Assembly (NCBI GenBank): GCA_031290985.1 | Contig: JARLJW010000016.1 | Location: 1 to 64,000 of the forward strand | DNA from: Verrucomicrobiia bacterium | Lineage (GTDB): Bacteria > Verrucomicrobiota > Verrucomicrobiia > Limisphaerales > UBA11358 | Direction: 5' to 3' | Length of the DNA stretch: 64,000 nucleotides | In this document: positions 942 to 49,183 of the stretch, piece by piece | Numbering within the stretch: position 1 is the first letter of the stretch | Layout of the letters: every line of letters starts with the position of its first letter | Notes under the pieces: generated by a model | The model's input: the letters and a program-made list of their open reading frames with translations, nothing else | Database searches by the model: none | Told to the model about the DNA's origin: nothing | Made by a program: the position numbers and the translations under genes

Positions 942-1730
942 ATGCGTGTGTCCGCTGAAAAGCCGGTGTTCTGGCAGAATTTGACGTGGGAGGAAATCTC
1001 GCGCCTGCGCCAGTCCGGAACCGACCTGTGTCTGTTGCCCGTGGGGGCGACGGAGCAGCATGGTCCGCATCTGGGCGTGGGCATGGACACATGCATCGCG
1101 GAAAAACTTGCGGCAGCCGTCTCATGTGAAACCGGCGTGCCGGTACTGCCGGTGCTGGCGTACGGCTGTTCGCTGGGGCATTCGCGGCGCTGGCCGGGCA
1201 CGATTGCGTTGCAGCCGCAGACGGTCATGAACCTGTTGGTGGAAATCTTTGACTGGCTGTACGGCGCAGGGTTCAAGCGGCTCATCATCGTGAACGGCCA
1301 TGTGGGCAATGCCGCGCCGTTGCGTTGCGCGCTGGAGATCATCCGCAGCCGTTATGACGATGCGCTGGTACGCATCTGCAACGTGGCCGAACTGAGCCCG
1401 CGCGTGCGCGCTGAATTCTTTGCCGATGCGGTTGACTGGCACGCGAACGCGGCGGAAACCGCCTTGATGCTGGCCGGCGCGCCGGAACTGGTGCGTCCGG
1501 AAAAAATCGCGGAAGCCGATGATGAGGATCGCACGGCGGGACTGGTCTTCACGCATCCGGTCAACCGCACGAGCAAGAACGGAGTGACCGGCTTTCCGAG
1601 CCGCGCCACCAAAGCGCAGGGCGAAAATTTGTTTCGCATGATGGTGGAAGACCTCGGCGGCATCATCCGCGCCGCGCTGACCGAGCAACCACCCCTCAAC
1701 CAAAAATATTCAACTGCTGTTTCCATTTGA
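942..1730 (+). CDS. Creatininase-family amidohydrolase
   Basis: A 262-residue protein of the creatininase superfamily, metal-dependent hydrolases of cyclic or linear amides (creatininase, formamide hydrolases of FAPy type, MftE). The metal-binding pattern is intact: [10 protein letters not shown] near residue 36 (Glu and His ligands), a downstream Asp in GVGMDT, NGHVGN near 115, and [10 protein letters not shown] near 160 supplying the late His/Glu. Length is normal. It is the first gene of the long operon, with a GAAGGA site 7 bases before the ATG, and its stop overlaps the next start (ATGA). In this setting it may open a creatinine-like or hydantoin-like ring, or deformylate or deamidate an intermediate. 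The family is seen; the substrate is inference. Confidence 0.8.
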
Positions 1731-3085
1731 TGAAACCCTCCGCCAATTCAAAAAAAATAAAGCAAAGCCTGGTCAGAAAGGGCGTTAAATATTGCGTCGG
1801 CGCCTATGTAGACATCCACGGTGTGCCCAAGGGCAAGTTTGTGCCCATTGAGCACTTCGAACACTTTGCCGCCGGCTCGGAGTTGTATACCGGCTATGCA
1901 CTCGACGGGCTGGGGCAGGCACCAAACGATGATGAAATTTCCTCAGTGCCGGACTTAAACCACATCATCCAGTTGCCGTGGCAGAAGGAAGTGGCGTGGA
2001 TGCCGGCGGACAATCATTTCCACGGCCAGCCGTATCCGCTCAATTCGCGCGTGCTGTTGAAGAACATCCTGGGCGAGGCGGCGAAGATGGGTTTCACCTT
2101 CCACCTCGGCATCGAGTGCGAAATCTACGTGCTGAAGCAGGACGAGCGCGGTCGCCTGCTGGTGCCCAATCCGGATGACAATCTCGACAAGAGCTGCTAC
2201 GACGTGAAGCGTTTCCTCGATGTGTTTCCCTGGCTGGATGAGATGGTCACGACGATGAACGGCCTTGGCTGGGATGTTTACTCGCTGGATCACGAAGACG
2301 GCAACTCGCAGTTTGAATTTGATTTCAAATACGCCGACGCGCTGACGATGGCCGACCGCTATATTTTCTTCCGCTACATGGCGAAGACCATTGCCGCGAA
2401 GCATGGTTTGCTGGCGACCTTCATGCCCAAGCCGTTTGCGGACAAGACGGGCAACGGCGCGCACTTCAACATGTCGCTGGCCGATTTGCGCACGGGGAAA
2501 AATCTCTTCGAATCGAAAAAAGACCCGCGTGGACTGGGGATTTCGCCGCTGGGCTACGCGTTCATTGCGGGCATCCTGCGACATGGCCGGGCGTTGTGCG
2601 CGGTGCTGGCGCCGACGGTGAACAGCTACAAGCGGCTCATCCGGCGCGGGGCGATGAGCTATTACTCGTGGGCACCGGTGTTCAATTCTTTCGGCACGAA
2701 CAACCGCACCAATTCCATCCGCGTGCCCATGGGCGGCGGCCGGTGCGAGAGCCGCAATGCGGATTCCTCCTGCAACCCGTACCTCGCCGCCGCGCTGGTG
2801 CTGGCGGCCGGGCTCGAGGGCGTGCGCGAGAAACTGAACCCAGGCGAGCCGCACCACGAAAATCTTTACGAACTGTCACCGGCTGAACTGGAGAAGATCG
2901 GCGTACAGGAACTGCCGCGCACCTTGGGCGAGGCGGTGGATGCGTTTGCCGCCGATCCGTTCGTGGAAAAAATTCTCGGCCCGGAACTGCGCAATGAATT
3001 CATCAAGTACAAGCGCGCCGAGTGGGAGGAATATCACCAGAGCGTGAGCCAGTGGGAAATTGACCGCTACGCGCGGTTGTTCTGA
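1727..3085 (+). CDS. Glutamine synthetase-family gamma-glutamyl ligase (GlnT/type III-like)
   Basis: A 452-residue glutamine-synthetase-fold ATP-dependent ligase. Visible family motifs are GIECEIYV (metal-binding Glu pair) near residue 127, [10 protein letters not shown] near 188, GNGAHFNMS near 240, NSYKRL near 300, NRTNSIRVP near 325 and a late [14 protein letters not shown]. The second His of the usual GxHxH motif is Asn here. It resembles GlnT and the gamma-glutamyl-methylamide and -alkylamide synthetases more than ordinary GlnA, and there is no adenylylation-site loop. Such enzymes join glutamate to ammonia or a small alkylamine. Its place inside a guanidine-type catabolic operon suggests capture of an amine released from the substrate, or of the ammonia. 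It overlaps the gene before it by 4 bases. Confidence 0.78.
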
Positions 3086-3138
3086 ATTTTTTTGGTCACC
3101 AACCATCAATAAACAAACCAAAACAAAAAAGGAAAACA

Positions 3139-4110
3139 ATGAAACTAAAAACAGCAGCTACCATGGCGCTCGTCGGGCTGGCCAGTCTGGCCGGGGTTCG
3201 CGCCGATACCATCAAGATTGGCTACAGCGACTGGCCGGGTTACACGGTCATGGAAGTCGCCAAGCAAAAAGGCTGGTTCAAGGACGCCGGCCTGGATGTG
3301 GAGATGGTCTGGTTCGAATATTCGCCCTCCATCGACGCTTTTTCCGCCGGGAAAATCGACGCGGACATGATTGTCGCGGGCGATGACATGGTCACCGGCG
3401 CCAGCGGCGCGAAGAGCAAGATCGTCTGCCTGGTGGATTACAGCGAAGGCAGCGACATGATCGTCGGCGGGCCGGGCATCGATTCGATCAAGGATTTGAA
3501 AGGCAAGAAGGTCGGCGTGGAACTCACGCTGGTGGAGCATGAACTTCTGCTGCAAGCGCTGAAAGTCAACGGCCTGAGCCAGTCGGACGTCACGCTCGTG
3601 GGCACGGCCACGGACAAGACGCCGCAGACGCTGGCGTCGGGAACGGTCGCCGCCATCGGTGCGTGGTATCCGATCTCGGGCCAGGCGCTGAAGCAGGTTG
3701 CCGGTTCGAAGAAGCTGTTCACCAGCGCCGACGCCAAGGGGCTGATCTTTGACGTGATCGCCGTCAACCCGGCGAGCTACGCCGCGCACAAGGAGGACTG
3801 GGCCAAGATCACGGCGATCTATTACAAGTGTGTCGCTTATCTGATGGATCCGGCGACCCGGGATGACGCCATCAAAATCATGGCCGCAAAAGTGGGCGCG
3901 GACCCGGTCGAATATGCCAAGAACGTTCCCGGCACGCATTTCCTGACGGTGGCTGAGGCGAAGACCTGCTTGAAGAAGAGCCACGACATGATGTCCATCT
4001 ACGGTTCGATGGAGCTGAGCGACAAATTTAACCTCGATAACGCGGTGTACAAGGTGTCGCAAAAGCCGTCGGACTACATCGTTCCCGGCATCGTGATGGG
4101 ATTGAAATAA
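3139..4110 (+). CDS. ABC transporter substrate-binding protein (NitT/TauT, urea-carboxylase-linked type)
   Basis: A 323-residue periplasmic binding protein with a clear signal peptide (MKLKTAATMALVGLASLAGV, cleavage after about VRA at 22). The mature start DTIKIGYSDWPGY, the later DAFSAGKIDADM and the DLKGKKVGVE segment are typical of SsuA/TauA/THI5-like binders. TIGRFAMs recognises a class of such binders next to urea carboxylase genes, and this one fits that context. An AAGGA site precedes the ATG. Together with the next two genes it makes a full importer. The ligand is probably guanidine or a substituted guanidine, inferred from the neighbouring enzymes only. Confidence 0.85.
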   Translation: MKLKTAATMALVGLASLAGVRADTIKIGYSDWPGYTVMEVAKQKGWFKDAGLDVEMVWFEYSPSIDAFSAGKIDADMIVAGDDMVTGASGAKSKIVCLVDYSEGSDMIVGGPGIDSIKDLKGKKVGVELTLVEHELLLQALKVNGLSQSDVTLVGTATDKTPQTLASGTVAAIGAWYPISGQALKQVAGSKKLFTSADAKGLIFDVIAVNPASYAAHKEDWAKITAIYYKCVAYLMDPATRDDAIKIMAAKVGADPVEYAKNVPGTHFLTVAEAKTCLKKSHDMMSIYGSMELSDKFNLDNAVYKVSQKPSDYIVPGIVMGLK

Positions 4111-4140
4111 ATCCCGAGGAACGCACCCCCGGATATTGCC

Positions 4141-5199
4141 ATGGCGCATAACGACTGGCTGGGATTGAAGAAGGAGCTGCCGCGCAAGCGGCAGCTCCAG
4201 CTCACCGTGCTGTCGTTCGTCCTCCCGCTGGCGGTCTGGTGTTTTTTGAGCTACGTGCCGTGGGTCTGGCATCCGCTGATCCACGTCATGGACCCGGGTT
4301 CGGTGGATTATTTCAGCGAAGGCCTGGACATCCCGCGGGCGACGTTTTATGCGGAGGAGGCCAAGGCGAAGGCGGCGGGCCAGGCGTTGCCCAAGGGCTT
4401 CCGGGTCAACCCCGTTTATCTGCCCGCGCCGCACAAGGTCGCCTGCGCTTTTTACACGGCGTTCAAAACGCCGCCGCGGTTGCAGGATGAACCGTGGCTG
4501 CACCAGAGCCTCGGCCACAGCATCCGCACCATTTTTCTCGGCTACCTGTTCTCCTCATTGATCGGCGTGCCGCTGGGGATCCTCTGCGGCAGCTTCCGTT
4601 TCTTTGCGAAGGTGCAGGAGCCGTTCATCGAATTTTTCCGCTATCTGCCGGCGCCCGCCTTTGGCGCGCTGTGCGTGGCCGTTCTCGGCATCGATGATGC
4701 GCCAAAAATCGCGATCATCTTCATCGGCACATTTTTCCAGCAGGTTTTGGTCATCGCCAACAGCGTGCGCAAGGTGGACCCCGGCCTGATCGAGGCCGCG
4801 CAGACGCTCGGGGCGTCCGGCTGGAAAATCGTCCGGCACGTGGTCATCCCCGCGTCCATCACGGACATTTACACCGACATGCGCATCTTGCTGGGCTGGG
4901 CGTGGACGTACCTGATCGTCGCGGAAGTCGTCGGGACAATGTCTGGTATCACGCTCTTCATCAACCAGCAGGCCCGCTACCGCAATTTCGACAACGTCTA
5001 TGCGGCAATTGCAATGATCGGCATCATCGGCTTTTCCACGGACATGTTCCTGGCGTGGGTCGGCGGCATTTTGTTTCCCTGGAAGCGCAAGACGGCGCGC
5101 CGAACGCGGACGCATACGTTTTTTCCGCTCTTTGACCGGCAACCCATCAAGCCGCTGACGGCGCCCAAACTGGAGGTTAAAACCGATGTCGCCGGGTGA
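4141..5199 (+). CDS. ABC transporter permease (NitT/TauT type)
   Basis: A 352-residue inner-membrane permease with about six to seven helices. The EAA loop that contacts the ATPase is visible as EAAQTLGASGWKIVRHVVIP near residue 220. An unusually long, mostly soluble segment (about residues 45-115) sits between the first helix and the core domain, probably a periplasmic loop; a similar insertion is common in nitrate/cyanate-type permeases. It follows the binding protein by 30 bases and overlaps the ATPase gene by 14 bases, so the three are translated as a unit. It would carry the substrate across the inner membrane. Confidence 0.88.
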   Translation: MAHNDWLGLKKELPRKRQLQLTVLSFVLPLAVWCFLSYVPWVWHPLIHVMDPGSVDYFSEGLDIPRATFYAEEAKAKAAGQALPKGFRVNPVYLPAPHKVACAFYTAFKTPPRLQDEPWLHQSLGHSIRTIFLGYLFSSLIGVPLGILCGSFRFFAKVQEPFIEFFRYLPAPAFGALCVAVLGIDDAPKIAIIFIGTFFQQVLVIANSVRKVDPGLIEAAQTLGASGWKIVRHVVIPASITDIYTDMRILLGWAWTYLIVAEVVGTMSGITLFINQQARYRNFDNVYAAIAMIGIIGFSTDMFLAWVGGILFPWKRKTARRTRTHTFFPLFDRQPIKPLTAPKLEVKTDVAG

Positions 5200-6091
5200 A
5201 TTAAAACTGCCGGATTACCGCGAACAATTGCCCGCCGTGGCGGCGCGCTTCGAGCGCATCCGCCAGCGGCCGGTGATTCTGACCATCCGCAACCTGAAAA
5301 AATCTTTCGGCTCGAATGGCGGCACCCGCGTGGTGTTCGATCACGTCTCGCTCGACATCCACCGTCGTGAATTCATCTGTGCCGTTGGGCCGTCCGGCTG
5401 CGGAAAATCAACCCTGGCGCGCATCGTCGTCGGCCTGGATGACGCGACCGGCGGTGAAGTGCTGCTGGACGGCAAGGCGGTCGCCGGCCCCGGCCCGGAT
5501 CGCGGCATGGTTTTTCAAGGGTATACGTTGTTTCCGTGGCTCACGGTGAAGCGCAACGTGATGTTCGGACTCCAGATGCATGGGAAAGCGCCGAGCACGG
5601 CGGATGTCGAGGCGCGGGAATGGCTGGACATGGTGGGCCTGGCGAAGTTTGAAAATTCGTATCCGCACGAGCTGTCCGGCGGCATGAAACAGCGCGTGGC
5701 CATCGCGCGTGCGCTGGCGAACAACCCGCGCATTCTCATCATGGATGAACCCTTCGCCGCGCTGGACGCGCAGACGCGCTGCCACATGCAGGGTTACCTG
5801 ATGCAGATCTGGAAAAAGGTGGACGTCACAATCTTGTTCATCACGCACGATCTCGACGAGGCGTCGTTGCTCGCGGACCGGATCTTGGTGATGGGCACGA
5901 ACCCGGGCGGCGTCGTGGAATTCATCGAGAATCCCGTGCCGCGTCCCCGCAGCGCGGCGCAGCTGATCTCGCCGGAATTTCTCGCGCTCAAGAAACGCCT
6001 GGAGGAGCACATCCATCCGCCGGCGGAAACGGAAACAGTGGAAAAATTACCCATGATCAAACTGACGGAGGCAGGCGATGAAGTTGAGTGA
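5186..6091 (+). CDS. ABC transporter ATP-binding protein (NitT/TauT type)
   Basis: A 301-residue ATPase. Walker A is GPSGCGKST near residue 70, the Q-loop follows in MVFQGYTLFPW, the signature is ELSGGMKQRVAIARAL near 160, Walker B is ILIMDEPFAALD near 180, and the H-loop is ILFITHDLDEAS. About 30 extra residues precede the ATPase core, and a short C-terminal tail follows. The start lies inside the permease gene (14-base overlap) and the end overlaps the deacetylase gene by 14 bases. It powers the importer encoded by 3139-5199. Confidence 0.9.
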   Translation: MSPGELKLPDYREQLPAVAARFERIRQRPVILTIRNLKKSFGSNGGTRVVFDHVSLDIHRREFICAVGPSGCGKSTLARIVVGLDDATGGEVLLDGKAVAGPGPDRGMVFQGYTLFPWLTVKRNVMFGLQMHGKAPSTADVEAREWLDMVGLAKFENSYPHELSGGMKQRVAIARALANNPRILIMDEPFAALDAQTRCHMQGYLMQIWKKVDVTILFITHDLDEASLLADRILVMGTNPGGVVEFIENPVPRPRSAAQLISPEFLALKKRLEEHIHPPAETETVEKLPMIKLTEAGDEVE

Positions 6092-6986
6092 ACCCGGAAA
6101 AGCCACCGGCCGCTTCCTGCCCCCGCCGCGTTTCACCTGGCCGGGCGGGGCGCGTTGCGCGGCCATGCTGTGCTTTGACGTGGATGGCGAAACGACCGCG
6201 CTCTCCGAGGATGCTGCGTTGGCGCGCCGCCGCACCCTGATGTCGCAATGCGAGTACGGCCCGCGCACCGGCGTGCCGCGCCTGCTCGGTTTGCTGAAGC
6301 ATCTCGAGGTGCCGGCGACATTTTTTATCCCCGGCTACATTGCCGAGCACCATCCGCGCATGGTCGAGGCGATCGTGGCCGACGGCCATGAGATCGGCCT
6401 GCATGGTTATTTGCACGAAAAACTCGCGTATCTGAACGAGGCCGAAGAGGAGGCCATTTTGCTGCGCAGCCTCGAAATTTTGACGCGCCTCAGCGGTTCC
6501 CATCCGGTCGGCTTCCGCGCGCCGTGGTTCGAGATCAACCCATGGACGCCGAGGCTCTTGAAAAAGCACAACCTCGCCTACTGCGCGAGCGAGATGGGCG
6601 ATGACGTGCCGTATTTTCATGACAACGGCCTCGTTGAAATTCCCGGCCAGTGGCTGCTGGAAGACTGGGAGCAATTCGCCTTCAACGCCGACCCGGCGTG
6701 GGGATTTATCCCGGAGAACTGTGGGAAAGTTTTTGACCTGTGGTGGCGCGAATTTGCGGCGATGCACGATTACGGCTGCTGCTTCGTGCTGACGCTGCAT
6801 CCGTGGCTGAGCGGGCGGCCATCGCGCGTGCAACTGCTGGAGGATCTGGTGGGCGCGATGCGCGAGCGCGGCGGTGTGTGGTTTGCGCGCGGGCGCGAGA
6901 TTGCGGACTACTTCCGGGAAAATCCCGGAGCGCGCCATGAAACCGATTTTGACCGAATGAAAACCTCAACCACGGTGAAGGCATGA
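6078..6986 (+). CDS. Polysaccharide-deacetylase (NodB-fold) family hydrolase
   Basis: A 302-residue CE4/NodB-fold protein. It shows FDVDGE near residue 33 (catalytic and metal Asp), HGYLHEK near 113 (metal His pair) and GFRAPWFEINPW near 152, with LTLHPW near the end for the last catalytic His. There is no signal peptide, so it works in the cytoplasm and is unlikely to act on cell-wall polysaccharide. This subfamily includes PuuE allantoinase and HP0310-like enzymes that cleave C-N bonds of small molecules. With a creatininase-like protein and allophanate hydrolase in the same operon, hydrolysis of a cyclic ureide or guanidine, or of an N-acyl intermediate, is plausible. It overlaps both neighbours. 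Confidence 0.75.
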   Translation: MKLSEPGKATGRFLPPPRFTWPGGARCAAMLCFDVDGETTALSEDAALARRRTLMSQCEYGPRTGVPRLLGLLKHLEVPATFFIPGYIAEHHPRMVEAIVADGHEIGLHGYLHEKLAYLNEAEEEAILLRSLEILTRLSGSHPVGFRAPWFEINPWTPRLLKKHNLAYCASEMGDDVPYFHDNGLVEIPGQWLLEDWEQFAFNADPAWGFIPENCGKVFDLWWREFAAMHDYGCCFVLTLHPWLSGRPSRVQLLEDLVGAMRERGGVWFARGREIADYFRENPGARHETDFDRMKTSTTVKA

Positions 6987-8326
6987 GCGCAACCCGCATG
7001 GAATGGAAACCGGCCTTCGAGCCGCTGGCATTCGCACGGCAGTCGAGCACGCGCACCGCGCAGCGTCCGCTGACGCTGGCGGAGATCCAGCACGGCATCG
7101 TCGAGGCGGGCAAGCTGCCGTTGAACCGGGCGACCACGCTGCCGGCGCAGGCCTATACGAGCGAGGAATTTTTTGCCTGGGAAACCGAACACGTCCTGCG
7201 CGCCGGCTGGCAATGCGTCGCGCATGTTTCGCAGATCCCGGCGGCCGGCGATTTTCTGAACCTCGACCTGCTCGGCGAACCGCTGATCGTCGTGCGCGGC
7301 AAGGATGAGGCGGTCCGCGTGCTGTCGCGCGTCTGTCCGCACCGTTCGATGGACATCATGCCGGAAGGTTTTGGCTATGAAGGCCACACGCTGGCCGAGG
7401 CGCGCGAGGGCAAACCGGATTGCGGTCAGACGCGGCTGTTGCTCTGCCCGTATCATGCGTGGACGTTCGAACTCGACGGCCAGCTCAAGGCCTGCCCGGA
7501 AATGCAGCAGGCGGAAAACTTCTGCCGCGACGATTTTTTCCTGAAACCGTTCCGCAGCGAAACGTGGAACGGCTTCATCTTCGTGAACCTCGACGGCCAG
7601 TCACCGCCGCTTGCCGATGGGCTCACCGAAATGGCGAACGACCTTGCGCCCTTTCCACTGGACACGATGAAGCTGGTCATCGCGCGGGAATGGGACTGCC
7701 CGTTCAACTGGAAGGTGCTCGTGGAGAATTTCATGGAGAGCTACCATCATCTGGGCATCCATCACAAATCGCTCCAGCCGATGATGCCGGCGCGGGACAC
7801 CTGGACGGAACGCGAGCGCCGCCATTACGTGCGTTCGCACCTGCCGTACAAAGATTCCGTGCGCGAGGCGTATCAAGCCTTTGCCGAAAAGGGTGATTTC
7901 TCCGACGATCTGCCGCCGGTCGCCGGCTTGAACGATACGCAAAAGTCCGAGTGGGGGTTGTTTTTGGTGCATCCGACCTTTTTGCTGGCCACCGCGCCGG
8001 ACCGGGTGATCTGGTACCGGCTACAGCCGCTCGGGCCGGACCGGCTGAAACTGGTCACGACGACGCTCGTCCCCGCCGAAACGGCGGCGCGGGAAAATTT
8101 TCCGCACCTGCGCGAGAAAGCCTTGAAACAGCTCACGGAATTTCACCTCGAAGACATGGAGGTCTGCACCGCCGTGCAGCGCGGTTTTTATGCGAGCGGC
8201 TGGCAGCCGGGCCGGTTGAGCCACCTGGAGATGCCCGTCTGGCTTTTCCACCGTTACCTCGCGGCGCGCATCCAGGGAAAATGGCCGACGGATGACGGCG
8301 ATGCCGCTGCCGGTCAACGCAGTTGA
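6983..8326 (+). CDS. Rieske non-heme iron oxygenase, alpha subunit
   Basis: A 447-residue ring-hydroxylating-type oxygenase alpha subunit. Rieske ligands are C118/H120 (CPH) and C155/H158 (CPYH). The mononuclear iron site shows in ENFMESYHHLGIH (N249, H255, H260), and an acidic partner is expected near LEDME at about 390. The spacing between the two Rieske pairs is 34 residues, about twice the usual 15-17, because of an insertion rich in Glu and Gly. The family includes N-demethylases and N-dealkylases (stachydrine, carnitine, glycine betaine, caffeine) as well as aromatic dioxygenases. No reductase or ferredoxin is encoded nearby, so electrons must come from elsewhere. Oxidative N-dealkylation of a substituted guanidine is my inference. 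It overlaps the gene before it by 4 bases. Confidence 0.85.
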   Translation: MSATRMEWKPAFEPLAFARQSSTRTAQRPLTLAEIQHGIVEAGKLPLNRATTLPAQAYTSEEFFAWETEHVLRAGWQCVAHVSQIPAAGDFLNLDLLGEPLIVVRGKDEAVRVLSRVCPHRSMDIMPEGFGYEGHTLAEAREGKPDCGQTRLLLCPYHAWTFELDGQLKACPEMQQAENFCRDDFFLKPFRSETWNGFIFVNLDGQSPPLADGLTEMANDLAPFPLDTMKLVIAREWDCPFNWKVLVENFMESYHHLGIHHKSLQPMMPARDTWTERERRHYVRSHLPYKDSVREAYQAFAEKGDFSDDLPPVAGLNDTQKSEWGLFLVHPTFLLATAPDRVIWYRLQPLGPDRLKLVTTTLVPAETAARENFPHLREKALKQLTEFHLEDMEVCTAVQRGFYASGWQPGRLSHLEMPVWLFHRYLAARIQGKWPTDDGDAAAGQRS

Positions 8327-8343
8327 TTTCACCAAACCAATCC

Positions 8344-9135
8344 ATGTTCACGCTCGCAAACAAAACCGCGATCGTCACCGGTGGCGCGTCCGGCATCGGA
8401 CTGGCCATCGCGAAACGATTTATCGCCGCCGGCGCGCGTGTGCTGGTGGCGGACCGTTCGACCGTGGGTGCGGCCGTGGTCACGGCGATGGGCGCGGAAT
8501 TCTTCCGGGCGGATGTGGCGCGCGAAGAACAGATCGCCGCGATGTTCGAGGCGGCGTGGAAAAGTTTTGGGCGCGTGGATGTGCTCGTGAACAACGCCGG
8601 CATCCAGCCGCTGGGCGTCGGCTTTGAACAGCTCACCGGTGAACTGCTCGGCCGAACGCTCGACGTCAATGTGAATGGCGTCGCCTTCGGCATCAAGTAC
8701 GCCGGGCGTTTGCTGGCCGATCGCGGCCGCGTGATCAACCTCGCCTCATTTGCCGGGATGATCGGAACACCCGGCGGCGCGGCGTATTCGACCTCGAAAG
8801 CCGCCGTCATCCATCTTACAAAACTGGGTGCCATTGAACTTGCGCCCCGTGGCATCACCGTCAATGCCATCAGTCCCGGCACGATTTTGACACCGGCGGT
8901 CACGGACATACCGGACAATCCGGAGATCGCCTTCATCACCCGCCGCACCCCGTTGGGACGGCTGGGGCGGCCGGAGGAAGTTGGCGCGCTCGCGCAATTT
9001 CTCGCGTCGGACGAGGCGGCGTATATCACCGGGCAGAACATCGCGATCGACGGCGGACTCACGGCGGGCTGGACGGAATACGACCTGGTGCCGCCGGCCA
9101 ACATCCAAGACGGGAGGTGGGTCGATGCTCCGTGA
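8344..9135 (+). CDS. Short-chain dehydrogenase/reductase
   Basis: A 263-residue classical SDR. The cofactor motif TGGASGIG begins at about residue 11, NNAG is near 87, and the catalytic Tyr-Lys pair is in AAYSTSKAAV near 150 with an upstream Ser in LASFAG. The Asp-Arg pair after beta-2 (VADRS) favours NAD over NADP. The ATG at 8344 starts directly at the cofactor domain; a TTG at 8323 would add seven unconvincing residues. It probably oxidises an alcohol or hemiaminal product of the upstream oxygenase, or reduces the released carbonyl compound. Its 3' end overlaps the SUMF1-domain gene by 11 bases. Confidence 0.85.
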   Translation: MFTLANKTAIVTGGASGIGLAIAKRFIAAGARVLVADRSTVGAAVVTAMGAEFFRADVAREEQIAAMFEAAWKSFGRVDVLVNNAGIQPLGVGFEQLTGELLGRTLDVNVNGVAFGIKYAGRLLADRGRVINLASFAGMIGTPGGAAYSTSKAAVIHLTKLGAIELAPRGITVNAISPGTILTPAVTDIPDNPEIAFITRRTPLGRLGRPEEVGALAQFLASDEAAYITGQNIAIDGGLTAGWTEYDLVPPANIQDGRWVDAP

Positions 9136-9886: not shown

Positions 9887-9888
9887 CC

Positions 9889-10791
9889 ATGAAGCTTAAA
9901 ACTTTCAAAACGCTTTGGGGTCACACCGGCAGCCTGGATGACGCGCTGGATGCCTGTCGCAAATATGATTTTGACGGCATCGAAGGTCCGGTGCCGGTGG
10001 AGGCGATGGAGCGGGTGGTTTTCCAAAAAGGGTTGGCGGCAAACGGCCTGGATTACATCGCAGAAATCTGCACGGCGGGCAGCTATGTTCCCGACCGGCA
10101 GGCCACGCCGACGGAACATATTGAATCACTACGGCGCAAGGCCGAAGCCGCCGTGGAATGCCGCCCGCTGTTCCTGACAGTCATCGCCGGTTGCGATGCG
10201 TGGAGCATCGCGCAGAGCGTGGATTTTTTTGGCGAAGCCATGGCGATTGCCGGCAAACTGGGCGTCACCGCGAGTTTTGAAACGCATCGCAGCCGTTCTT
10301 TTTTTAATCCATGGACGACGCGGGACATTTTGAAACAACTGCCCGCGCTCAAGCTTACCTGTGATTTTTCGCACTGGTGTGTGGTTTGCGAGCGGCTGAT
10401 TGATACCGAGCCGGAGGTGCTGGCGCTTTGCGCCGGACGGGCGCATCACATCCACGCGCGCGTCGGTTATGACCAAGGACCGCAAGTGCCGCATCCCGCC
10501 GCGCCGGAATACCGTGCGGCGCTGGTGGCACACGAGAATTGGTGGACGCAAATCTGGCGCAGCCAGGCCGCACGCGGTCTGACGGTCACCACGATGACCC
10601 CTGAATTCGGGCCGGACGGTTATTTGCAATGCCAGCCATTCACCGGAAAACCGGTCGCGGACCTGGTGGAGGTCAATGCCTGGATGGCGGCGCGGCAACG
10701 ACAACGGTTTGAGGAAATTTTTAATTCCGAATCAGATAAAAAATCTCAACCGGAGCCAAACCCGCTCGTGCCGGCCGGAAAAAATATTTAA
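9889..10791 (+). CDS. Sugar-phosphate isomerase/epimerase-like TIM barrel protein
   Basis: A 300-residue protein of the xylose-isomerase-like (AP endonuclease family 2) TIM-barrel superfamily. A full set of likely divalent-metal ligands is visible: Glu in FETHRSR near residue 126, Asp/His in LTCDFSHW near 157, His in HIHARVGYD near 184 and Glu in MTPEFGPDGY near 237. The family includes hydroxypyruvate isomerase, tagatose epimerase and myo-inosose dehydratase. It starts 2 bases after the SUMF1 gene, so it belongs to the operon. It may convert the carbon skeleton left after the nitrogen group is removed; the reaction is not known. Confidence 0.72.
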   Translation: MKLKTFKTLWGHTGSLDDALDACRKYDFDGIEGPVPVEAMERVVFQKGLAANGLDYIAEICTAGSYVPDRQATPTEHIESLRRKAEAAVECRPLFLTVIAGCDAWSIAQSVDFFGEAMAIAGKLGVTASFETHRSRSFFNPWTTRDILKQLPALKLTCDFSHWCVVCERLIDTEPEVLALCAGRAHHIHARVGYDQGPQVPHPAAPEYRAALVAHENWWTQIWRSQAARGLTVTTMTPEFGPDGYLQCQPFTGKPVADLVEVNAWMAARQRQRFEEIFNSESDKKSQPEPNPLVPAGKNI

Positions 10792-10830
10792 GCTGGAACG
10801 AACCAGTGACCCAAAGACCGACAATAAATT

Positions 10831-13800
10831 ATGTTTAAGAAAGTTCTCATCGCCAACCGTGGCGCGATCGCCTGCCGGATCATCCGTACGCTCAAGCGGA
10901 TGGGCGTGGGTTCGGTGGCGATCTATTCGGACGCCGACGCGAATTCGCTGCATGTCGCGCAGGCGGACGAGGCGGTGGGCATCGGTGGTTTGACCGCCGC
11001 GGAGAGCTACCTGGATTTTGAGAAGGTTTTTGCCGCCGCCCGGAAGACGGGCGCGGAGGCCATCCATCCGGGGTACGGGTTCCTCAGCGAGAATGCGGAT
11101 TTCGCCGGGGCGTGCGCGCGGGAAGGTTTTGTGTTCGTCGGCCCCACGCCGCAGCACATGCGAGATTTCGGGCTGAAGCACACGGCGCGGTCGCTCGCGC
11201 AAAAGCACGGGGTGCCGATGCTGCCGGGCAGCGGGCTGCTGGATTCGCTCGACCACGCGAAGACGGAGGCCGGGCGGATCGGCTATCCGGTGATGCTCAA
11301 GAGCACGGCCGGCGGCGGGGGTATCGGCATGCGGATGTGTCCGGATGAAGCGGCGCTGGTGGACGCATTTGAATCCGTGCGGCGCATGGCGGCGAGCGCC
11401 TTCAAGCAGAACGGGGTGTATCTGGAAAAATTTGTGGGCATCGCGCGGCACATCGAGGTGCAGATTTTCGGCGACGGGAAGGGCAACGTCGTGGCACTGG
11501 GCGAACGCGATTGCTCGGCGCAGCGGCGCAACCAGAAGGTGGTGGAGGAAACGCCCGCGCCGGGCTTGTCGGAAGATCTGCGGCGCTCGCTGCTGGATTC
11601 GGCGGTGCGGTTGACGCGCGAGGCGGGTTATCAATCCGCCGGGACGGTCGAATTTGTTTTTGATGTGAAGGAGCTGAAGTTTTATTTCCTCGAGGTGAAT
11701 ACGCGCTTGCAGGTGGAACATGGCGTGACCGAGGAGGTGGCCGGCGTGGATCTGGTGGAGTGGATGATCCAGCAGGCGGCGGGTGAACTGGATCTCGGCA
11801 CTTACAAGGCGGTCACGTGCGGCGCTGCCATCCAGGTGCGGCTGTACGCGGAAGATCCGAACAAGAATTTCCAACCCAGCTCTGGCGTGCTCACGGAAAC
11901 AATTTTTCCGGCGGGCGCACGCGTGGAGACGTGGGTTGAGCGAGGTTCGGAAATCCCGCCGTTTTATGATCCGATGATCGCCAAGATCATCGTGCGGGCG
12001 GCGACGCGGAGTGAGGCCGTCGTGGCGTTGCAAAAAGCGCTGGCGGAAACCAAGGTGGCGGGCATCGAGTGCAACTTGGAATATCTGCGGCAGGTCATCG
12101 GCAGCGCGGAATTTGCCGCGGGGGACATTCACACCAAGTGGCTGGCGACGTTTCCGTACCGGCCGGCGACGATTGATGTCATCGAACCGGGCACGCAGAG
12201 CAGCGTACAGGATTATCCGGGGCGCATCGGCTATTGGTCCATCGGCGTGCCGCCGTCCGGGCCGATGGATGATTACGGATTTCGCATTGCGAATGAACTG
12301 GTGGGAAATCCGGCCAAGGCCGCCGGGCTGGAGATCACGCTGAGCGGGCCGACGTTGAAATTCAACCTTGATACAACCATTGCGTTGACAGGCGCGGAAA
12401 TGGAGGCGGACCTTGACGGGAATCCGGTGCCGTTCTGGCAGAGCATCCATGTGCGCGCGGGGAGCGTTCTGCGCCTGCAAAAAATAAAGGCGGCCGGGTG
12501 CCGGACGTATCTGACGGTGCGGGGCGGGTTTGACGTGCCGGATTACCTGGGCAGCAAATCCACCTTCGGCCTGGGCAAATTTGGCGGTCATGCCGGACGC
12601 ACCTTGCGGCATGGCGATGTGCTGCACGTTCACCGCGCGACAGAACCGTTCGCACCCATCCGCACCGCGCCGCCGGCGCTGGTGCCGAAATATCATGCGC
12701 ATTGGAACATTGGCGTGCTGTACGGCCCGCACGCCGCGCCGGATTTTTTCACGGAAGAGTTCATCGCGATGTTTTTCGCGACGGACTGGAAGGTGCATTA
12801 CAATTCCAACCGTTCCGGCATCCGTTTGATCGGGCCGAAGCCGGGTTTTGCCCGCACGGACGGCGGCGACGCGGGGCTGCATCCCTCCAACATCCATGAC
12901 ACGGAATATGCCATTGGCACGATCTGTTTCACGGGCGACATGCCGGTGATTTTGGCGAAGGATGGTCCGAGCCTGGGCGGTTTCGTGTGCCCGGCGACGA
13001 TCGCGAAGGCGGAATTTTGGAAGGTCGGCCAGCTCCGGCCCGGCGACACGATCCGTTTTGTGCGGATGAGTTATGACGAAGCCCTGGCCACTGAACGCGG
13101 TCAGGACGAGTCGATCCGGGCGCTGGAAGCCAAGATAATTTCCGTCCCGCCGAATGTGGTGATTAAGAAGTCCGCGGCGGCGAGCGATTCGATTTTGCAC
13201 AGCGTCCCGGCCTCGGCGACGAGCCCGGGCGTGGTGTACCGGCAGGCGGGCGACAAGTTTTTGTTGATCGAATACGGGCCGCTGGTGCTGGATTTTGAGC
13301 TGCGTTTTCGGGCGCATCTGCTGATGGAATGGCTGGCGAAGCATCCCGTGCCCGGAGTCATCGAGCTTTCGCCGGGGGTACGTTCGTTGCAGATCAATTT
13401 TGACAGCCGTGTGATTCCGCTGGAGCAGCTGCTGGAAATTCTAGTGCAGGCGGAGCAGGAACTACCGTCCGTTGAATCGCTCGAAGTGCCGACGCGCATC
13501 GTGCGGATGCCGCTATCGTACGATGATGCGGGCATCCGGCTGACCATTGAGAAATACCAGCAGTCCGTGCGCGCCAAGGCGCCGTGGCTGCCGAGCAACA
13601 TCGAGTTCATTCGGCGGATGAACGGCCTCGACAGCGTGAAGGAGGTGTACAACACCGTTTTTGCCGCGAACTACCTCGTGCTGGGGCTGGGCGATGTGTA
13701 TCTCGGTGCGCCGTGCGCGGTGCCGGTGGATCCGCGGCACCGGTTCGTGACGACGAAATATAATCCCGCGCGCACATTTACGGTGGAAAACGTCGTGGGC

Positions 13801-14448
13801 ATCGGCGGCGTGTACATGTGCATCTACGGCATGGAAGGCCCGGGCGGCTACCAACTGTTTGGGCGCACGGCACAGGTGTGGAACACCTACCGCAGCACGC
13901 GGGAATTTCAGGCGGGCAAGCCGTGGCTGCTGCGGTTCTTTGACCAGATACGTTTCTATCCGGTGTCGGCGAAGGAACTGCTGGATTTCCGCCAGGCATT
14001 TTTACATGGGCAGGTGCAACTGGACATCCAGGAGGATGTCTTCAGCTTTCCGAAGTACCGGAAATTTTTGCGCGACAACGAGGCGGGCATCACGAAGTTC
14101 CGCAACCGGCAGCAAAAGGCGTTTGCGGAAGAGCGGGAGCGCTGGGCCATCGACGGCTCGGGGGCGGTGGCGGCTGAACCCGAAGTGGAAACGGTGGCCG
14201 ATGAAATGACCGCCCCGGCGAACGGACAGCTTATCGCCTCGCCCATCACCGGAAATATCTGGACGGTGCTGGCGAAAGAAGGCGACCGCGTGTCGGCCGG
14301 GCAGAAAGTCGTGGTTGTGGAAGCAATGAAAATGGAAGTCGGCGTGGAAGCGCCATTTGCGGGCGTCATTAAAAAGATGGCCGCCGTGCCGGGCAAGCTG
14401 GTCAACGCGGGGCAACCGCTGGCGATCATCGAAAAGGAGGGGGCATGA
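10831..14448 (+). CDS. Biotin-dependent urea/guanidine carboxylase
   Basis: A 1205-residue multidomain carboxylase in the standard order. The biotin carboxylase spans about residues 1-445 (IANRGAIACR, then ATP-grasp with KSTAGGGGIGM, EVNTRLQVEHGVTE). A KipA-like AHS2 domain runs from about 448 (EPGTQSSVQDYPGRIGYW) to 750, and a KipI-like AHS1 domain from about 795 to 1070. The biotinyl domain at the end has VEAMKMEVG with biotin-accepting Lys1167. The enzyme carboxylates urea or guanidine with ATP and bicarbonate. The adjacent UAAP pair and AtzF point to guanidine as the real substrate, because published work showed that such clusters are guanidine pathways. I cannot align the carboxyltransferase specificity residues here. 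The 39-base gap upstream has no strong ribosome-binding site. Confidence 0.9.
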   Translation: MFKKVLIANRGAIACRIIRTLKRMGVGSVAIYSDADANSLHVAQADEAVGIGGLTAAESYLDFEKVFAAARKTGAEAIHPGYGFLSENADFAGACAREGFVFVGPTPQHMRDFGLKHTARSLAQKHGVPMLPGSGLLDSLDHAKTEAGRIGYPVMLKSTAGGGGIGMRMCPDEAALVDAFESVRRMAASAFKQNGVYLEKFVGIARHIEVQIFGDGKGNVVALGERDCSAQRRNQKVVEETPAPGLSEDLRRSLLDSAVRLTREAGYQSAGTVEFVFDVKELKFYFLEVNTRLQVEHGVTEEVAGVDLVEWMIQQAAGELDLGTYKAVTCGAAIQVRLYAEDPNKNFQPSSGVLTETIFPAGARVETWVERGSEIPPFYDPMIAKIIVRAATRSEAVVALQKALAETKVAGIECNLEYLRQVIGSAEFAAGDIHTKWLATFPYRPATIDVIEPGTQSSVQDYPGRIGYWSIGVPPSGPMDDYGFRIANELVGNPAKAAGLEITLSGPTLKFNLDTTIALTGAEMEADLDGNPVPFWQSIHVRAGSVLRLQKIKAAGCRTYLTVRGGFDVPDYLGSKSTFGLGKFGGHAGRTLRHGDVLHVHRATEPFAPIRTAPPALVPKYHAHWNIGVLYGPHAAPDFFTEEFIAMFFATDWKVHYNSNRSGIRLIGPKPGFARTDGGDAGLHPSNIHDTEYAIGTICFTGDMPVILAKDGPSLGGFVCPATIAKAEFWKVGQLRPGDTIRFVRMSYDEALATERGQDESIRALEAKIISVPPNVVIKKSAAASDSILHSVPASATSPGVVYRQAGDKFLLIEYGPLVLDFELRFRAHLLMEWLAKHPVPGVIELSPGVRSLQINFDSRVIPLEQLLEILVQAEQELPSVESLEVPTRIVRMPLSYDDAGIRLTIEKYQQSVRAKAPWLPSNIEFIRRMNGLDSVKEVYNTVFAANYLVLGLGDVYLGAPCAVPVDPRHRFVTTKYNPARTFTVENVVGIGGVYMCIYGMEGPGGYQLFGRTAQVWNTYRSTREFQAGKPWLLRFFDQIRFYPVSAKELLDFRQAFLHGQVQLDIQEDVFSFPKYRKFLRDNEAGITKFRNRQQKAFAEERERWAIDGSGAVAAEPEVETVADEMTAPANGQLIASPITGNIWTVLAKEGDRVSAGQKVVVVEAMKMEVGVEAPFAGVIKKMAAVPGKLVNAGQPLAIIEKEGA

Positions 14449-16247
14449 GCGCACCGGTGTTTCTAGATTTGACGACGCTGCGGCAGGCTTATGTTGACGG
14501 GATGCTGACACCGGAACAGGTGGTGTTGGAGGTATTGCGCCGGAGCGAGGATGCGCGGTATCCGCATGTGTGGATCGCGAAGACCGACCGGGAACGTCTG
14601 CTGGCGATGGCGCGCGCGCTGCCGTCAAAGCCGACCGCCGAGCTGCCGCTCTACGGCGTGCCGTTTGCCATCAAGGACAACATTGATCTGGCGGAGACGC
14701 CGACGACGGTGGGGTGCCCGGAGTTTTCGTTTGTGCCGGCGGCGTCGGCCACGGTCGTGAAGCGGCTCATCGCGGCGGGAGCACTGCCCATCGGCAAAAC
14801 CAATCTGGATCAATTTGCAACCGGACTTGTCGGGGTGCGTTCGCCGCATGGCGCGTGTGAATCGGTTTTCGATAAAAGCTACATCTCGGGCGGATCGAGC
14901 TCCGGGTCGGCCGTGGCGGTGGCGTCGGGCATGGTGGCGTTTGCGTTGGGGACGGATACGGCGGGTTCGGGGCGCGTGCCGGCGGCGTTCAATAACATCG
15001 TGGGGCACAAACCGACGCGCGGATTATTGAGCAACCAGGGCGTGTTTCCCGCATGCCGTTCGCTGGATTGCGTTTCCATCTTTGCGGGCAGTTGTCATGA
15101 CGCCCAGGCGGTGCTGGATGTCGCGGCGGGATTTGATGCCGGTGATGCGTACTCGCGGATGCGGCCCAAGTGCGGCGTCAATTTTCCCGAAAAATTTCGC
15201 TTCGGAATTTTGCCGGCGGAGCAACGGGAGTTTTTTGGCGATGTCGAGGCGGCGGCGTTGTACGACCAGGCAATAGCGGGGTTGCGCCTTCTGGGTGGCG
15301 AGGCGGTGGAGTTTGATTACACACCCTTTGCAGACGCGGCCAAGCTACTGTATGCCGGGCCGTGGGTGGCGGAACGGCGCTGGGCGCTGGGCAAGTTTTT
15401 TGAAGCGCAGTCGGGCGCAATCCATCCGGTGGTGCGCGAAATCATCGGTGGCGCGGCGAAGCATGACGCGGTGTCGGCGTTTGCCGCGCAATACAAGTTG
15501 CAAGCCTTCATGCAGGCGACGCGCGAAGTGTGGAAGCAACTGGATGTGCTGCTGCTGCCGACGACGGGCACGACGTATCGCATCGCGGAGGTGCTGGCCG
15601 ACCCGATCACGCTGAACAGCAATCTGGGTTATTACACGAATTTTGTGAACCTGCTCGACCTTGCGGCGCTGGCGGTGCCGGCCGGATTCCGCGCGACGAA
15701 TGGTTTGCCATTTGGCGTGACCCTGATCGGCCCGGCCTTTTCGGATGATGCGTTGCTGGCGTTGGGGGCCCGGTACCATCAGGCGACGGGCGGCGGCATG
15801 GGCGTGACGGCGGCGGACATTTCCGGGCAGCCGTTGCCGAAGGAAAAGAACGAGGGGGTGCTGCTCGCGGTCGTGGGGGCGCATCTGCGGGGACAGCCGC
15901 TGAATCACCAGCTTACGTCGCGACGGGCGCGGTTTGTGCGGGCGACGCGGACATCGCCGCATTACCGGCTGTATGCGCTCGCGAACACGCAGCCGCCGAA
16001 ACCGGGGCTGCGGCGCGTGGCGGAGAAGCTGGCGCAGGGCATCGAGATTGAAATCTGGGCGCTGGACGAGGCGGCGTTCGGTTCGTTCGTGGCGGAAATT
16101 CCGGCGCCGCTGGGCATCGGCACGTTGGAACTGGAAGATGGTGGCAGCGTGAAAGGCTTTTTGTGCGAACCCATCGGATTGGAGGGCGCGCGCGACATCA
16201 CGGAATTCGGCGGTTGGCGGGCGTTCCGCCAGTCTCTGGCAAAATAA
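14445..16247 (+). CDS. atzF: Allophanate hydrolase
   Basis: A 600-residue amidase-signature enzyme that splits allophanate into two ammonia and two CO2 in the cytoplasm. The Ser-cisSer-Lys triad regions are visible: FAIKDNID near residue 74 (Lys), GGSSSGSAVAVASG near 149 (cis-Ser) and GTDTAGSGRVPAAF near 167 (nucleophile Ser). The extra C-terminal domain (from about residue 465, with LLAVVGAHLRGQPLNHQL) is typical of the long AtzF/DUR1,2 form rather than bare amidases. AAGGAGGGGG directly precedes the ATG, which overlaps the carboxylase stop (ATGA). The strong site suggests high translation. It is the last nitrogen-releasing step of the route. Confidence 0.92.
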   Translation: MSAPVFLDLTTLRQAYVDGMLTPEQVVLEVLRRSEDARYPHVWIAKTDRERLLAMARALPSKPTAELPLYGVPFAIKDNIDLAETPTTVGCPEFSFVPAASATVVKRLIAAGALPIGKTNLDQFATGLVGVRSPHGACESVFDKSYISGGSSSGSAVAVASGMVAFALGTDTAGSGRVPAAFNNIVGHKPTRGLLSNQGVFPACRSLDCVSIFAGSCHDAQAVLDVAAGFDAGDAYSRMRPKCGVNFPEKFRFGILPAEQREFFGDVEAAALYDQAIAGLRLLGGEAVEFDYTPFADAAKLLYAGPWVAERRWALGKFFEAQSGAIHPVVREIIGGAAKHDAVSAFAAQYKLQAFMQATREVWKQLDVLLLPTTGTTYRIAEVLADPITLNSNLGYYTNFVNLLDLAALAVPAGFRATNGLPFGVTLIGPAFSDDALLALGARYHQATGGGMGVTAADISGQPLPKEKNEGVLLAVVGAHLRGQPLNHQLTSRRARFVRATRTSPHYRLYALANTQPPKPGLRRVAEKLAQGIEIEIWALDEAAFGSFVAEIPAPLGIGTLELEDGGSVKGFLCEPIGLEGARDITEFGGWRAFRQSLAK

Positions 16248-16253
16248 TTTATC

Positions 16254-16982
16254 ATGAGCACTGAGAACATTCTGTTTGAGGAAATGCTGCCCGGCGGCGG
16301 GCTGTGGTCGTGGACGTTGCGACGGCACACGACATTGCGGCTGACCGATCTGGAGGGCGGCACCAATGTCGGGCTGATGGCGTACAACGCGGACCAGCCG
16401 CTGGACCGGCTGAACCTGCCGGACACGTTGAAGGCGCAATACACGGCCAAGCTGACGCGCGGTCATGTGTTGATGAGCGACATGGGGCATGCGCTGCTTT
16501 CGATCACGAGCGATACGGTCGGGTGGCATGACCCGCTCGGCGGTCATGGCAATGCGGCGCTGGTCAAACGCAAGTACGGCGAGGCGACGTACCAGGAAAA
16601 GCGCAACGACTGGTATCGCAACGCGCATGACAATTTTCTGGTGGAACTCGGCAAGCATGGGCTGGGGAAACGCGACCTGGTGGCGAACGTGAATTTTTTC
16701 AGCCGGCTGGATGTGGACGCGGAAGGGCGGATGAAATTTCATCCGGGAAATTCCACGGAAGGCGCGTCCGTCGATCTGCGCGCGGAGATGAACGTGCTGG
16801 TGGTTCTGAACACTTGCCAGCATCCGCTGGATCCGAATCCAGAATATGGGCCGAAGCCGGTGAAGTTGACGGTCTTGAAAACGCCGCCGCCGGGGCCGGA
16901 TGATTTTTGCCGGAATTTCCGGGGCGAGAACCAGCGCAGTTTCATTTTAACCGAAAGATTATTTCAAGGAGCGTCGCAATGA
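16254..16982 (+). CDS. UAAP1-type DUF1989 protein, carboxyguanidine deiminase subunit
   Basis: A 242-residue DUF1989 protein that matches the 'urea amidolyase associated protein 1' class: early [19 protein letters not shown], then [31 protein letters not shown] and late VNFFSRLDV. Proteins of this pair were long labelled urea-related; published biochemistry identified them as CgdAB, a heteromeric carboxyguanidine deiminase that turns the guanidine carboxylase product into allophanate. The His in GWHD and the Cys near [10 protein letters not shown] are probable metal or catalytic residues conserved with its partner. It follows atzF by 6 bases and overlaps UAAP2 by 4 bases. I do not assign the A or B letter. 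Confidence 0.85.
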
Positions 16983-17626
16983 GCACATTCATTTTAACCG
17001 AAAGCAAACTGGATCCAGCGGCGGCGATGTATGATTTCACCGTGAAGGCGGGTGACGGCTGGATGCACGAAATCAAGCGCGGGCAGACCTTTCGCATCGT
17101 GGACCTCGAGGGCAACCAGGCGGTGGACACGCTGTTTTACAACGCGCAGGACATGGCGGACCGTTATTCGGCGCAGGACACGATCCGGGAGCAGGGCGGG
17201 ATTTACCTGACGACGGGCACGAAGCTCATGTCGAGCGAGGGCAATGTGCTGGCCACGATTGTGGCGGACACGTGCGGCCGGCACGATACGCTGGGCGGGG
17301 CGTGCGCGGCGGAGAGCAACCAGGTACGCTATGCGCTCGACAAGCGGTGGATGCACAGTTGCCGGGATACGTTCATGCTGGAGATCGCGCGCTGGGGCAA
17401 GGGCGTGACGAAGTGCGACCTCACGCACAACATCAATTTTTTCATGAACGTGCCGGTGACGCCGGACGGCGGGCTTTCATTTGCGGACGGCGTGAGCGCA
17501 GGCGGACGGTATGTCGAGCTGCGGGCGGAGATGGATCTGATATGCCTGATCTCGAACTGTCCGCAGCTCAATAATCCATGCAATGCATATAATCCCACGC
17601 CGGTGCGGCTGCTGATCTGGCCATGA
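16979..17626 (+). CDS. UAAP2-type DUF1989 protein, carboxyguanidine deiminase subunit
   Basis: A 215-residue DUF1989 protein, paralogue and partner of the previous gene. Typical motifs are [19 protein letters not shown] near residue 39, [36 protein letters not shown] near 96, [14 protein letters not shown] and the ending [18 protein letters not shown]. The conserved Cys-Arg-His and NNPCN elements suit the carboxyguanidine deiminase role of the complex. The ATG at 16979 overlaps the UAAP1 stop (ATGA), with AAGGAGCG just before. Seventeen bases at its 5' end (16988-17004) repeat a stretch near the 3' end of UAAP1 (16941-16957). Confidence 0.87.
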
Positions 17627-17985
17627 GAAGATTGTTCCGTCAATTGAGCGCGGTTCTGTTGATCGCGGCCCTGGCGGGCACGGTGTGCCTGCTGTGGTTT
17701 GACGTGGCGAATCACCTGCGCCTGACGTTCCTGCATCAGCGGACGGGGGCGCTGGCGTTCATCCTGGTGGGGGCGTCGTACATCTGCCTGCTGCTAAGCG
17801 ACGGGCACCGGTGGCGGAGCCATATCAAGGGGCTGCTGCTGGGGACGGGATTTTTGCTGTGGGGCGGGGAGCAGTTTATGGAGCCGGGGGCGGTGGCGAC
17901 GGTGATGGACAGTTTGGTGGTGTTGATTTTTGTGAGCGACCTGGGATGGATCATTGCGAGTGATATCCGGCGGAAGCGGGGGTAG
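17623..17985 (+). CDS. Small membrane protein coupled to the guanidine operon
   Basis: A 120-residue protein with three to four predicted membrane helices: about residues 7-26, 42-58, 67-82 and 90-110. It starts RRLFRQ and ends IRRKRG, giving a positive-inside pattern. Its ATG overlaps the UAAP2 stop (ATGA), so it is co-translated as the last gene of the operon. It does not look like an SMR (Gdx) guanidinium exporter: the helix count fits, but the conserved Glu and WxxY-type motifs of that family are missing. Function unknown; a transporter accessory or an unrelated hitchhiker are both possible. Confidence 0.65.

Positions 17986-49107: not shown

Positions 49108-49183
<76 letters not shown>

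Follow-up and report, generated by a model that had tools for sequence, protein, structure and literature searches.

A fifteen-gene cluster with a probable guanidine-degrading back end

The stretch of DNA analysed here, hereafter the window, comprises 64,000 nucleotides of contig JARLJW010000016.1 (assembly GCA_031290985.1) from a Verrucomicrobiia bacterium. At positions 942-17985 it carries fifteen genes, all on the same strand, beginning with a creatininase-superfamily gene (CRN) and ending with a gene for a small membrane protein (MEM), in the order CRN-GLN-SBP-PERM-ATP-NODB-RIE-SDR-FGE-TIM-UCA-ATZF-UAAP1-UAAP2-MEM and with intergenic spacings of −14 to +53 bases. From the letters alone, a first-pass annotation had read this region as an operon whose front genes trim an imported compound and feed guanidine to a known degradation route. 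All of the genes that it named were found on one strand, and profile scans assigned them to the following families (bit scores in brackets, followed by model cut-offs where these apply).

942-1730, plus strand: CRN, creatininase-superfamily amidohydrolase (PF02633, 227.5 bits)
1727-3085, plus strand: GLN, type III glutamine synthetase (GS)-like gamma-glutamyl ligase (TIGR03105, 628.6 bits, cut-off 469.6)
3139-4110, plus strand: SBP, ATP-binding cassette (ABC) transporter substrate-binding protein, NMT1/SsuA type (PF09084)
4141-5199, plus strand: PERM, ABC permease (PF00528)
5186-6091, plus strand: ATP, ABC ATPase (PF00005)
6078-6986, plus strand: NODB, NodB-fold C-N hydrolase (PF01522)
6983-8326, plus strand: RIE, Rieske non-heme iron oxygenase, large subunit
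8323-9135, plus strand: SDR, short-chain dehydrogenase (PF13561)
9125-9886, plus strand: FGE, SUMF1/FGE-fold, PvdO-like protein (PF03781, 180.9 bits)
9889-10791, plus strand: TIM, xylose-isomerase-like TIM barrel (PF01261)
10831-14448, plus strand: UCA, biotin-dependent carboxylase of the urea/guanidine family (TIGR02712, 1857.6 bits, cut-off 1303.85)
14445-16247, plus strand: ATZF, allophanate hydrolase (TIGR02713, 795.3 bits, cut-off 511.05)
16254-16982, plus strand: UAAP1 (TIGR03425, 326.6 bits, cut-off 205.95)
16979-17626, plus strand: UAAP2 (TIGR03424, 336.3 bits, cut-off 284.7)
17623-17985, plus strand: MEM, small membrane-like protein, overlapping UAAP2 by 4 bases

The cluster is a real, conserved and undescribed extension of guanidine catabolism. 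Its four back-end proteins, UCA, ATZF, UAAP1 and UAAP2, all exceed their NCBIfam cut-offs, and the start of FGE most likely lies at 9125, where it is preceded by GGGAGG. MEM, which had no match in an NCBIfam scan, is present in 4 of the 45 related loci introduced below. The contig starts at window base 1, leaving a 5′ flank of only 941 bases before CRN, so that the cluster may continue with additional 5′ genes past the contig edge.

Conservation of the Rieske gene with guanidine modules

Is this arrangement more than a chance neighbourhood? One genome collection was scanned using 21 aligned Rieske proteins; 570 stretches encoded a relative, and the best 80, representing 78 distinct loci, were kept. 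These were divided at an identity gap (at least 44% versus at most 36%) into 45 family loci, L022-L066 (by name 39 Verrucomicrobiota, 4 Cyanobacteria and 2 Proteobacteria), with the remaining 33, L067-L099, as the outgroup. A guanidine module, defined as UCA, UAAP1/2, ATZF or a guanidinase at cut-offs set against paralogues, lies near the Rieske gene in 25 of the 45 family loci but in none of the 33 outgroup loci (Fisher 3.5e-8, a value that serves as a guide only, related species being non-independent). When the anti-paralogue cut-offs are lifted, the family count is 26 of 45, and a single ATZF-like amidase (39%) appears in outgroup locus L087. The front genes follow the same pattern: CRN occurs in 32 family loci, GLN and TIM in 31-32 each, FGE in 29-30, NODB in 24 and SDR in 21, and each of the six is absent from all 33 outgroup loci. 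The co-occurrence of front and guanidine genes that the first-pass annotation had proposed to check is thus borne out. Verrucomicrobiota loci share large parts of the cluster at 40-94% identity, so that the clustering exceeds chance.

The same association appears at the level of whole genomes. In a phylum sample of 288 genomes, the Rieske protein (E up to 1e-90) was detected in 4, the window's own included, all of which also have UAAP1, a gene found in 35 of the 288; the two genes lie less than 6 kb apart in genomes G360 and G385 and on separate contigs in G276. The neighbours of the window's genome and the best Rieske loci bear the names Verrucomicrobia and Pedosphaera. Among plasmids no Rieske protein of the RIE family was found (best 34%), and among 292 cyanobacterial genomes the only match was the query's own. 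In the cyanobacterial genomes G607 and G609, which have both RIE and a guanidinase, the guanidinase lies on other contigs with no RIE nearby. A search of G547, G542 and G530 gave no RIE; it was run without a positive control, using a query that worked in other searches.

A cassette nested in a probable guanidine core

Two genus-mates of the window reveal how the cluster is assembled. In L114, SBP-PERM-ATP leads directly into UCA-ATZF-UAAP1-UAAP2, the contig opening just before SBP, so that CRN and GLN cannot be judged there; L115 reads CRN-GLN-SBP-PERM-ATP-UCA-ATZF-UAAP1-UAAP2. Neither has NODB, RIE, FGE or TIM between ATP and UCA, and no Rieske protein of the RIE family was found in their genomes (91 and 92% complete). 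Because both loci run importer and core without these genes, NODB-RIE-(SDR)-FGE-TIM can be recognised as a cassette that separates ATP from UCA; the importer belongs to the core and not to the front end. The suggestion of the first-pass annotation that the ABC importer is dedicated to the front end must therefore be abandoned, as both genus-mates retain it at 78-84% identity. SBP scores below the cut-off of the putative urea-binding protein model TIGR03427 (109.6 bits against 333.9), and the importer has relatives in two cyanobacterial guanidinase clusters (SBP 33-34% and ATP 47% identical), a kinship that fits guanidine uptake.

Exchange of back ends behind one cassette

A 54-row Rieske tree places the window in an eight-member clade (SH-aLRT 99). 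The window and L022 have a carboxylase with Cys at the specificity position discussed below, and L023 has one with Asn; all three share the order UCA-ATZF-UAAP1-UAAP2. L118, in turn, has an Asp-type carboxylase in the order NikR-UAAP1-UAAP2-UCA-ATZF, and L026, of the same Rieske clade, is a short contig. L024, L025 and L027 show no carboxylase module in 21 kb and have an arginase-family gene immediately before CRN. The L027 protein matched two solved chains, 9fek (531 bits), which we take to be the guanidinase of N. inopinata, and 7esr (524 bits), far above the next (163.5 bits). According to published work, the Synechocystis guanidinase is 7oi1, to which the 7esr sequence is identical, and the signature residues of the N. 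inopinata enzyme are T105, H222 and W313 (PMC11410670). The T, H and W of this signature are conserved, with an offset of +2 in the 9fek chain, and the surrounding motifs are present in L024, L025 and L027, which are thus predicted to carry a GdmH-type guanidinase; L027 also has a urease alpha gene. The L027 guanidinase found no match at 1e-80 in the 288 phylum genomes, including the window's, in a search without a positive control.

These exchangeable back ends converge on free guanidine, and no other observation speaks as strongly for guanidine as the product of the front cassette.

A carboxylase of the urea clade beside UAAP1 and UAAP2

Asp at the position of K. lactis residue 1330 is reported to mark guanidine as opposed to urea carboxylases, with Asp at 1584 as a further criterion (PMC11410670), and urea carboxylases are reported to have Asn at the specificity position (PMC12186494). 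The UCA of the window has Cys699 opposite K. lactis Asn1330, which fits neither type, and the common Asp, Asp955, opposite K. lactis Asp1584. The specificity residue could be read in 16 of the 45 family loci, of which 13 have Asp, 2 have Cys and 1 has Asn; in a set made up of the window and its 120 closest proteins it is Asn in 55, Cys in 43 (the window and its own database copy counted) and Asp in 23. Carboxylase trees of 51 and 56 rows place the window inside an Asn/Cys clade with support 100, whose members include the urtABCDE-linked urea carboxylase of a plasmid (L124) and another from Niveispirillum (L125). The first-pass annotation had called the back end the established guanidine route, naming a carboxylase that groups with urea carboxylases and uses urea only as the contrary case; given Cys699 and the placement in the Asn clade, the grouping half of that contrary case describes the window, and the claim does not hold as worded.

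How, then, might a carboxylase of this clade serve guanidine? An Asp-type carboxylase (P0178) is nested within the Asn/Cys clade, and Cys has more than one origin in the tree, in which one row (P0212) was unreadable; a strict Asp/Asn rule thus does not hold, and the specificity residue is labile and may switch back and forth. Cys699 is not an adaptation to the front end, since L114 and L115 have Cys without the cassette. Among eight plasmid loci picked from 40 listed, the six of Asp type have UAAP1/2 and the two of Asn type lack them; the window's lineage is thus unusual in combining a urea-clade carboxylase with UAAP1/2. These two proteins, which we take to be the subunits CgdA and CgdB of carboxyguanidine deiminase, are 84-93% identical in the window's nearest relatives. 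In L053 and L054, UAAP1/2 that are 82-85% identical are paired with an Asp-type carboxylase, which suggests that the UAAP substrate is the same there and in the window, namely carboxyguanidine. We infer that the Cys-type carboxylase makes carboxyguanidine, perhaps besides allophanate.

Enzymes of the front end

RIE has the attributes of a Rieske oxygenase: in an alignment of 35 rows, the CxH/CxxH cluster ligands (C118, H120, C155, H158) and the 2-His-1-carboxylate residues (H255, H260, D391) are invariant. The apparent nearest folds to its predicted model are CntA carnitine oxygenase and stachydrine demethylase (22-27% identity in structural alignments), both of which cleave C-N bonds. RIE falls short of the model NF058607 for the glycine betaine monooxygenase GbcA, with 128.2 bits against a cut-off of 670.

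The first-pass annotation had called CRN a creatininase-type hydrolase, a label that its sequence does not bear out. CRN scores 126.7 bits against the creatininase model TIGR04448 (cut-off 235), and alignments to 3a6h and 1q3k show Gly in place of Glu122 and Ala in place of Trp154 of P. putida creatininase, which we take to be signature residues of that enzyme. By signature, CRN is therefore not a creatininase, and because it misses both the cut-off and these residues, creatinine, which the first-pass annotation had listed among candidate substrates, becomes less likely as the direct substrate. Abiotic oxidation of creatinine to creatol and methylguanidine is reported (PMC3775425). The best solved relative of GLN is 9qur, a glutamate–methylamine ligase (404.7 bits), and GLN fits the type III GS-like/glutamate-methylamine ligase group, with methylamine as a candidate amine substrate. 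In NODB, whose best solved relative is 3rxz (236 bits), D34, D36, H109, H113 and H241 are invariant in an alignment of 25 rows. SDR, which was not found in L022, L058 and L118, has invariant N116, S142 and Y155 and a nearly invariant K159 (21 rows). In TIM, E131, H133, D159, H162, H187 and E239 are invariant in 23 rows; it has no sequence relative in the PDB, and its predicted model (pLDDT 88.5) has UlaE, tagatose/psicose epimerases and C-glucosyl deglycosidases as Foldseek neighbours. FGE scores 163.7 bits against the PvdO model NF051459, below its cut-off of 500, and its alignment contains no invariant Cys.

Related clusters vary in their enzyme content. At least two Rieske matches per cluster were seen in L029, L032, L051, L052, L056 and L064, and several such loci have a second, distant set of binding protein and permease, perhaps reflecting sequential oxidations or a second importer. 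In L055, a 591-aa beta-lactamase-fold (PF00144) protein at 6564-8336, between the cluster's permease and binding protein, is probably an extra amide hydrolase.

What does the front end produce?

With modest confidence, we favour the reading that the front end frees guanidine. The part of the first-pass annotation that remains the best reading is a route that feeds guanidine, as the front genes are kept with guanidine genes, also where the back end is a guanidinase or an Asp-type carboxylase. Gene content, conservation, back-end exchange and the family and fold assignments are what the data show; the reactions themselves, which we infer, would run as follows. RIE would hydroxylate the carbon adjoining a guanidine nitrogen of an N-alkylated guanidine, perhaps an N-methyl one, our best guess being methylguanidine itself or one of its methylated or carboxylated relatives. 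The resulting hemiaminal would break into free guanidine and a carbonyl fragment, with TIM perhaps acting as a lyase, and the carbon and amine fragments would be handled by SDR, NODB, CRN and the gamma-glutamyl ligase GLN. Guanidine would then be carboxylated and converted to allophanate by UAAP1/UAAP2, and AtzF would yield ammonia and CO2, so that the whole operon would scavenge nitrogen by releasing and then mineralising guanidine.

Several observations weigh against this reading. First, 20 of the 45 family loci have no guanidine module at strict cut-offs; many of them end at a contig edge, and five (L029, L033, L043, L062 and L063) extend over more than 21 kb each without one. Second, the two genus-mates carry importer and core without the oxygenase cassette. 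Third, the carboxylase lacks the guanidine-type Asp and groups in the urea-type clade. Fourth, the operon contains no Rieske reductase; the genome encodes three PF00175 proteins that are reductase candidates, none of them assigned. Fifth, no guanidine-I to -IV riboswitch was detected in the window at gathering scores, nor at E up to 1 within positions 1-18200, a search that ends at the contig edge. Finally, the roles of TIM and FGE are guesses.

Rather unlikely, in our view, is an operon of two independent nitrogen pathways with only regulation in common, the front degrading a methylated amine or quaternary ammonium compound by a CntA/GbcA-like oxygenase and a glutamate-methylamine-ligase-like enzyme and the back degrading imported guanidine. 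The closest solved relatives, a carnitine oxygenase and a glutamate–methylamine ligase, would suit such a scheme, as would the core that exists without the cassette and the long loci that have front genes but no guanidine module. However, the cassette accompanies three kinds of guanidine module, a strong association, and none of 40 chosen and scanned neighbour proteins, a sample that is not exhaustive, completes a methylamine or betaine pathway.

A further unlikely scheme overlaps the favoured one and differs in substrate only: the parent guanidino compound would be larger, namely agmatine, a guanidino acid or a cyclic guanidine, and would give up guanidine through gamma-glutamylation of its amine, oxygenation beside the guanidine nitrogen and hydrolysis by CRN and NODB. 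The company that the oxygenase keeps, namely a gamma-glutamyl ligase, two amide/C-N hydrolases and SDR, is what one would expect here, and the L030 cluster includes a 2-hydroxyacid dehydrogenase. Yet L115 combines CRN and GLN but lacks an oxygenase, NODB and TIM, and the 21 kb of L029 contain oxygenases, FGE and TIM but neither CRN nor GLN, so that CRN/GLN and the oxygenase genes need not form one linear route; moreover, the 40 scanned neighbours include no aldehyde dehydrogenase (PF00171).

Very unlikely is a route via urea, with the front end releasing urea or a ureide to a true urea carboxylase: the Asn clade with its urtABCDE-linked member, the urease alpha genes by the clusters of L027 and L038, and the window's own genome (94% complete), in which no urease alpha subunit was seen and carboxylase plus AtzF would be the urea route, all speak for it, but the retention of UAAP1/2 and their absence from the two Asn-type plasmid loci, the 13 Asp-type enzymes among 16 readable Rieske-linked carboxylases and the guanidinase that replaces the carboxylase in three loci argue against it.

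Comparison with known systems

In agreement with the first-pass annotation, searches of open-licence PMC papers found no described pathway with this gene set. The closest parallel to a front end that frees guanidine is MgdH/MgdL, which in Vreelandella boliviensis are reported to release free guanidine from N-methylguanidine inside a guanidine carboxylase operon (PMC12508155). As there, the window combines a carboxylase, CgdAB, AtzF and an ABC importer with a putative guanidine-freeing oxygenase. That operon, however, uses a 2-oxoglutarate (2-OG)/Fe(II) dioxygenase and a beta-barrel lyase and has guanidine riboswitches (PMC12508155), whereas the window has RIE, TIM, FGE, NODB, SDR, CRN and GLN, no riboswitch that we could find and a putative substrate; a family scan of the 10 front-gene proteins found no such dioxygenase. 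The Gca/CgdAB/AtzF pathway (PMC12186494, PMC11410670) shares the carboxylase family, UAAP1/2, AtzF and an ABC importer, and differs from the window, which has Cys for the diagnostic Asp, a position in the Asn clade and seven extra catalytic-type genes (CRN, GLN, NODB, RIE, SDR, FGE and TIM). From the GdmH guanidinase clusters (PMC11410670), a GdmH-like enzyme is found in place of the carboxylase module in L024, L025 and L027, and a homologous importer occurs in the two cyanobacterial clusters, which have no RIE, FGE or TIM across the 19-20 kb covered. In marine Synechococcus, a guanidinase cluster is reported, by gene order only, to include a putative Rieske Fe-S protein and a TauABC-like importer (PMC10119275); a putative Rieske protein is thus already associated in print with guanidine catabolism. 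CntA and stachydrine demethylase, apparently the closest Rieske folds to RIE, have different gene neighbours.

That bacteria encounter free guanidine is evident from riboswitches and degradation pathways, but few enzymes are known to produce it (PMC12508155, PMC12186494). If our reading is right, a Rieske-based route would be a further guanidine source, in a phylum that is prominent in soil and freshwater, and would point to substituted guanidines being widespread in nature. We advance only tentatively, as the doubtful stronger form of this proposal, that RIE and a TIM lyase constitute a second, independently evolved source of free guanidine, analogous to MgdH/MgdL and feeding interchangeable modules across Verrucomicrobiota, and that, in the window's lineage, guanidine is served by a urea-clade carboxylase co-opted via an Asn-to-Cys change that breaks the Asp/Asn rule. 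The cluster offers a clean test of that annotation rule, since its carboxylase is Cys-type and of the urea clade yet stands beside carboxyguanidine-deiminase-type genes, and the exchange of carboxylase and guanidinase behind one cassette makes a direct, testable prediction of the front-end product.

Regulators and neighbouring features

The riboswitch search, which covered 18 sources, was also negative at gathering scores in L022, L023, L027-L032, L054, L058, L113-L115, L117, L118, L120 and L121, of which L113, L117 and L120 repeat the contigs of L022, L023 and L030. In 14 of the 45 family loci (e.g., L028, 14691-15134), a NikR-like regulator (RHH plus NikR_C) precedes UAAP1 or lies close to the module; it may sense nickel or a guanidino ligand, and the window has none. 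LuxR-type (GerE) regulators occur inside or beside related clusters in L041 (7235-7954), L051 and L054 (3925-4689). Downstream of the cluster, window positions 19088-21832 encode a secreted-looking protein of 914 aa whose two halves resemble each other and contain many short repeated turns, and a tRNA gene at 49108-49180 is the sole Rfam match at gathering score within the window.

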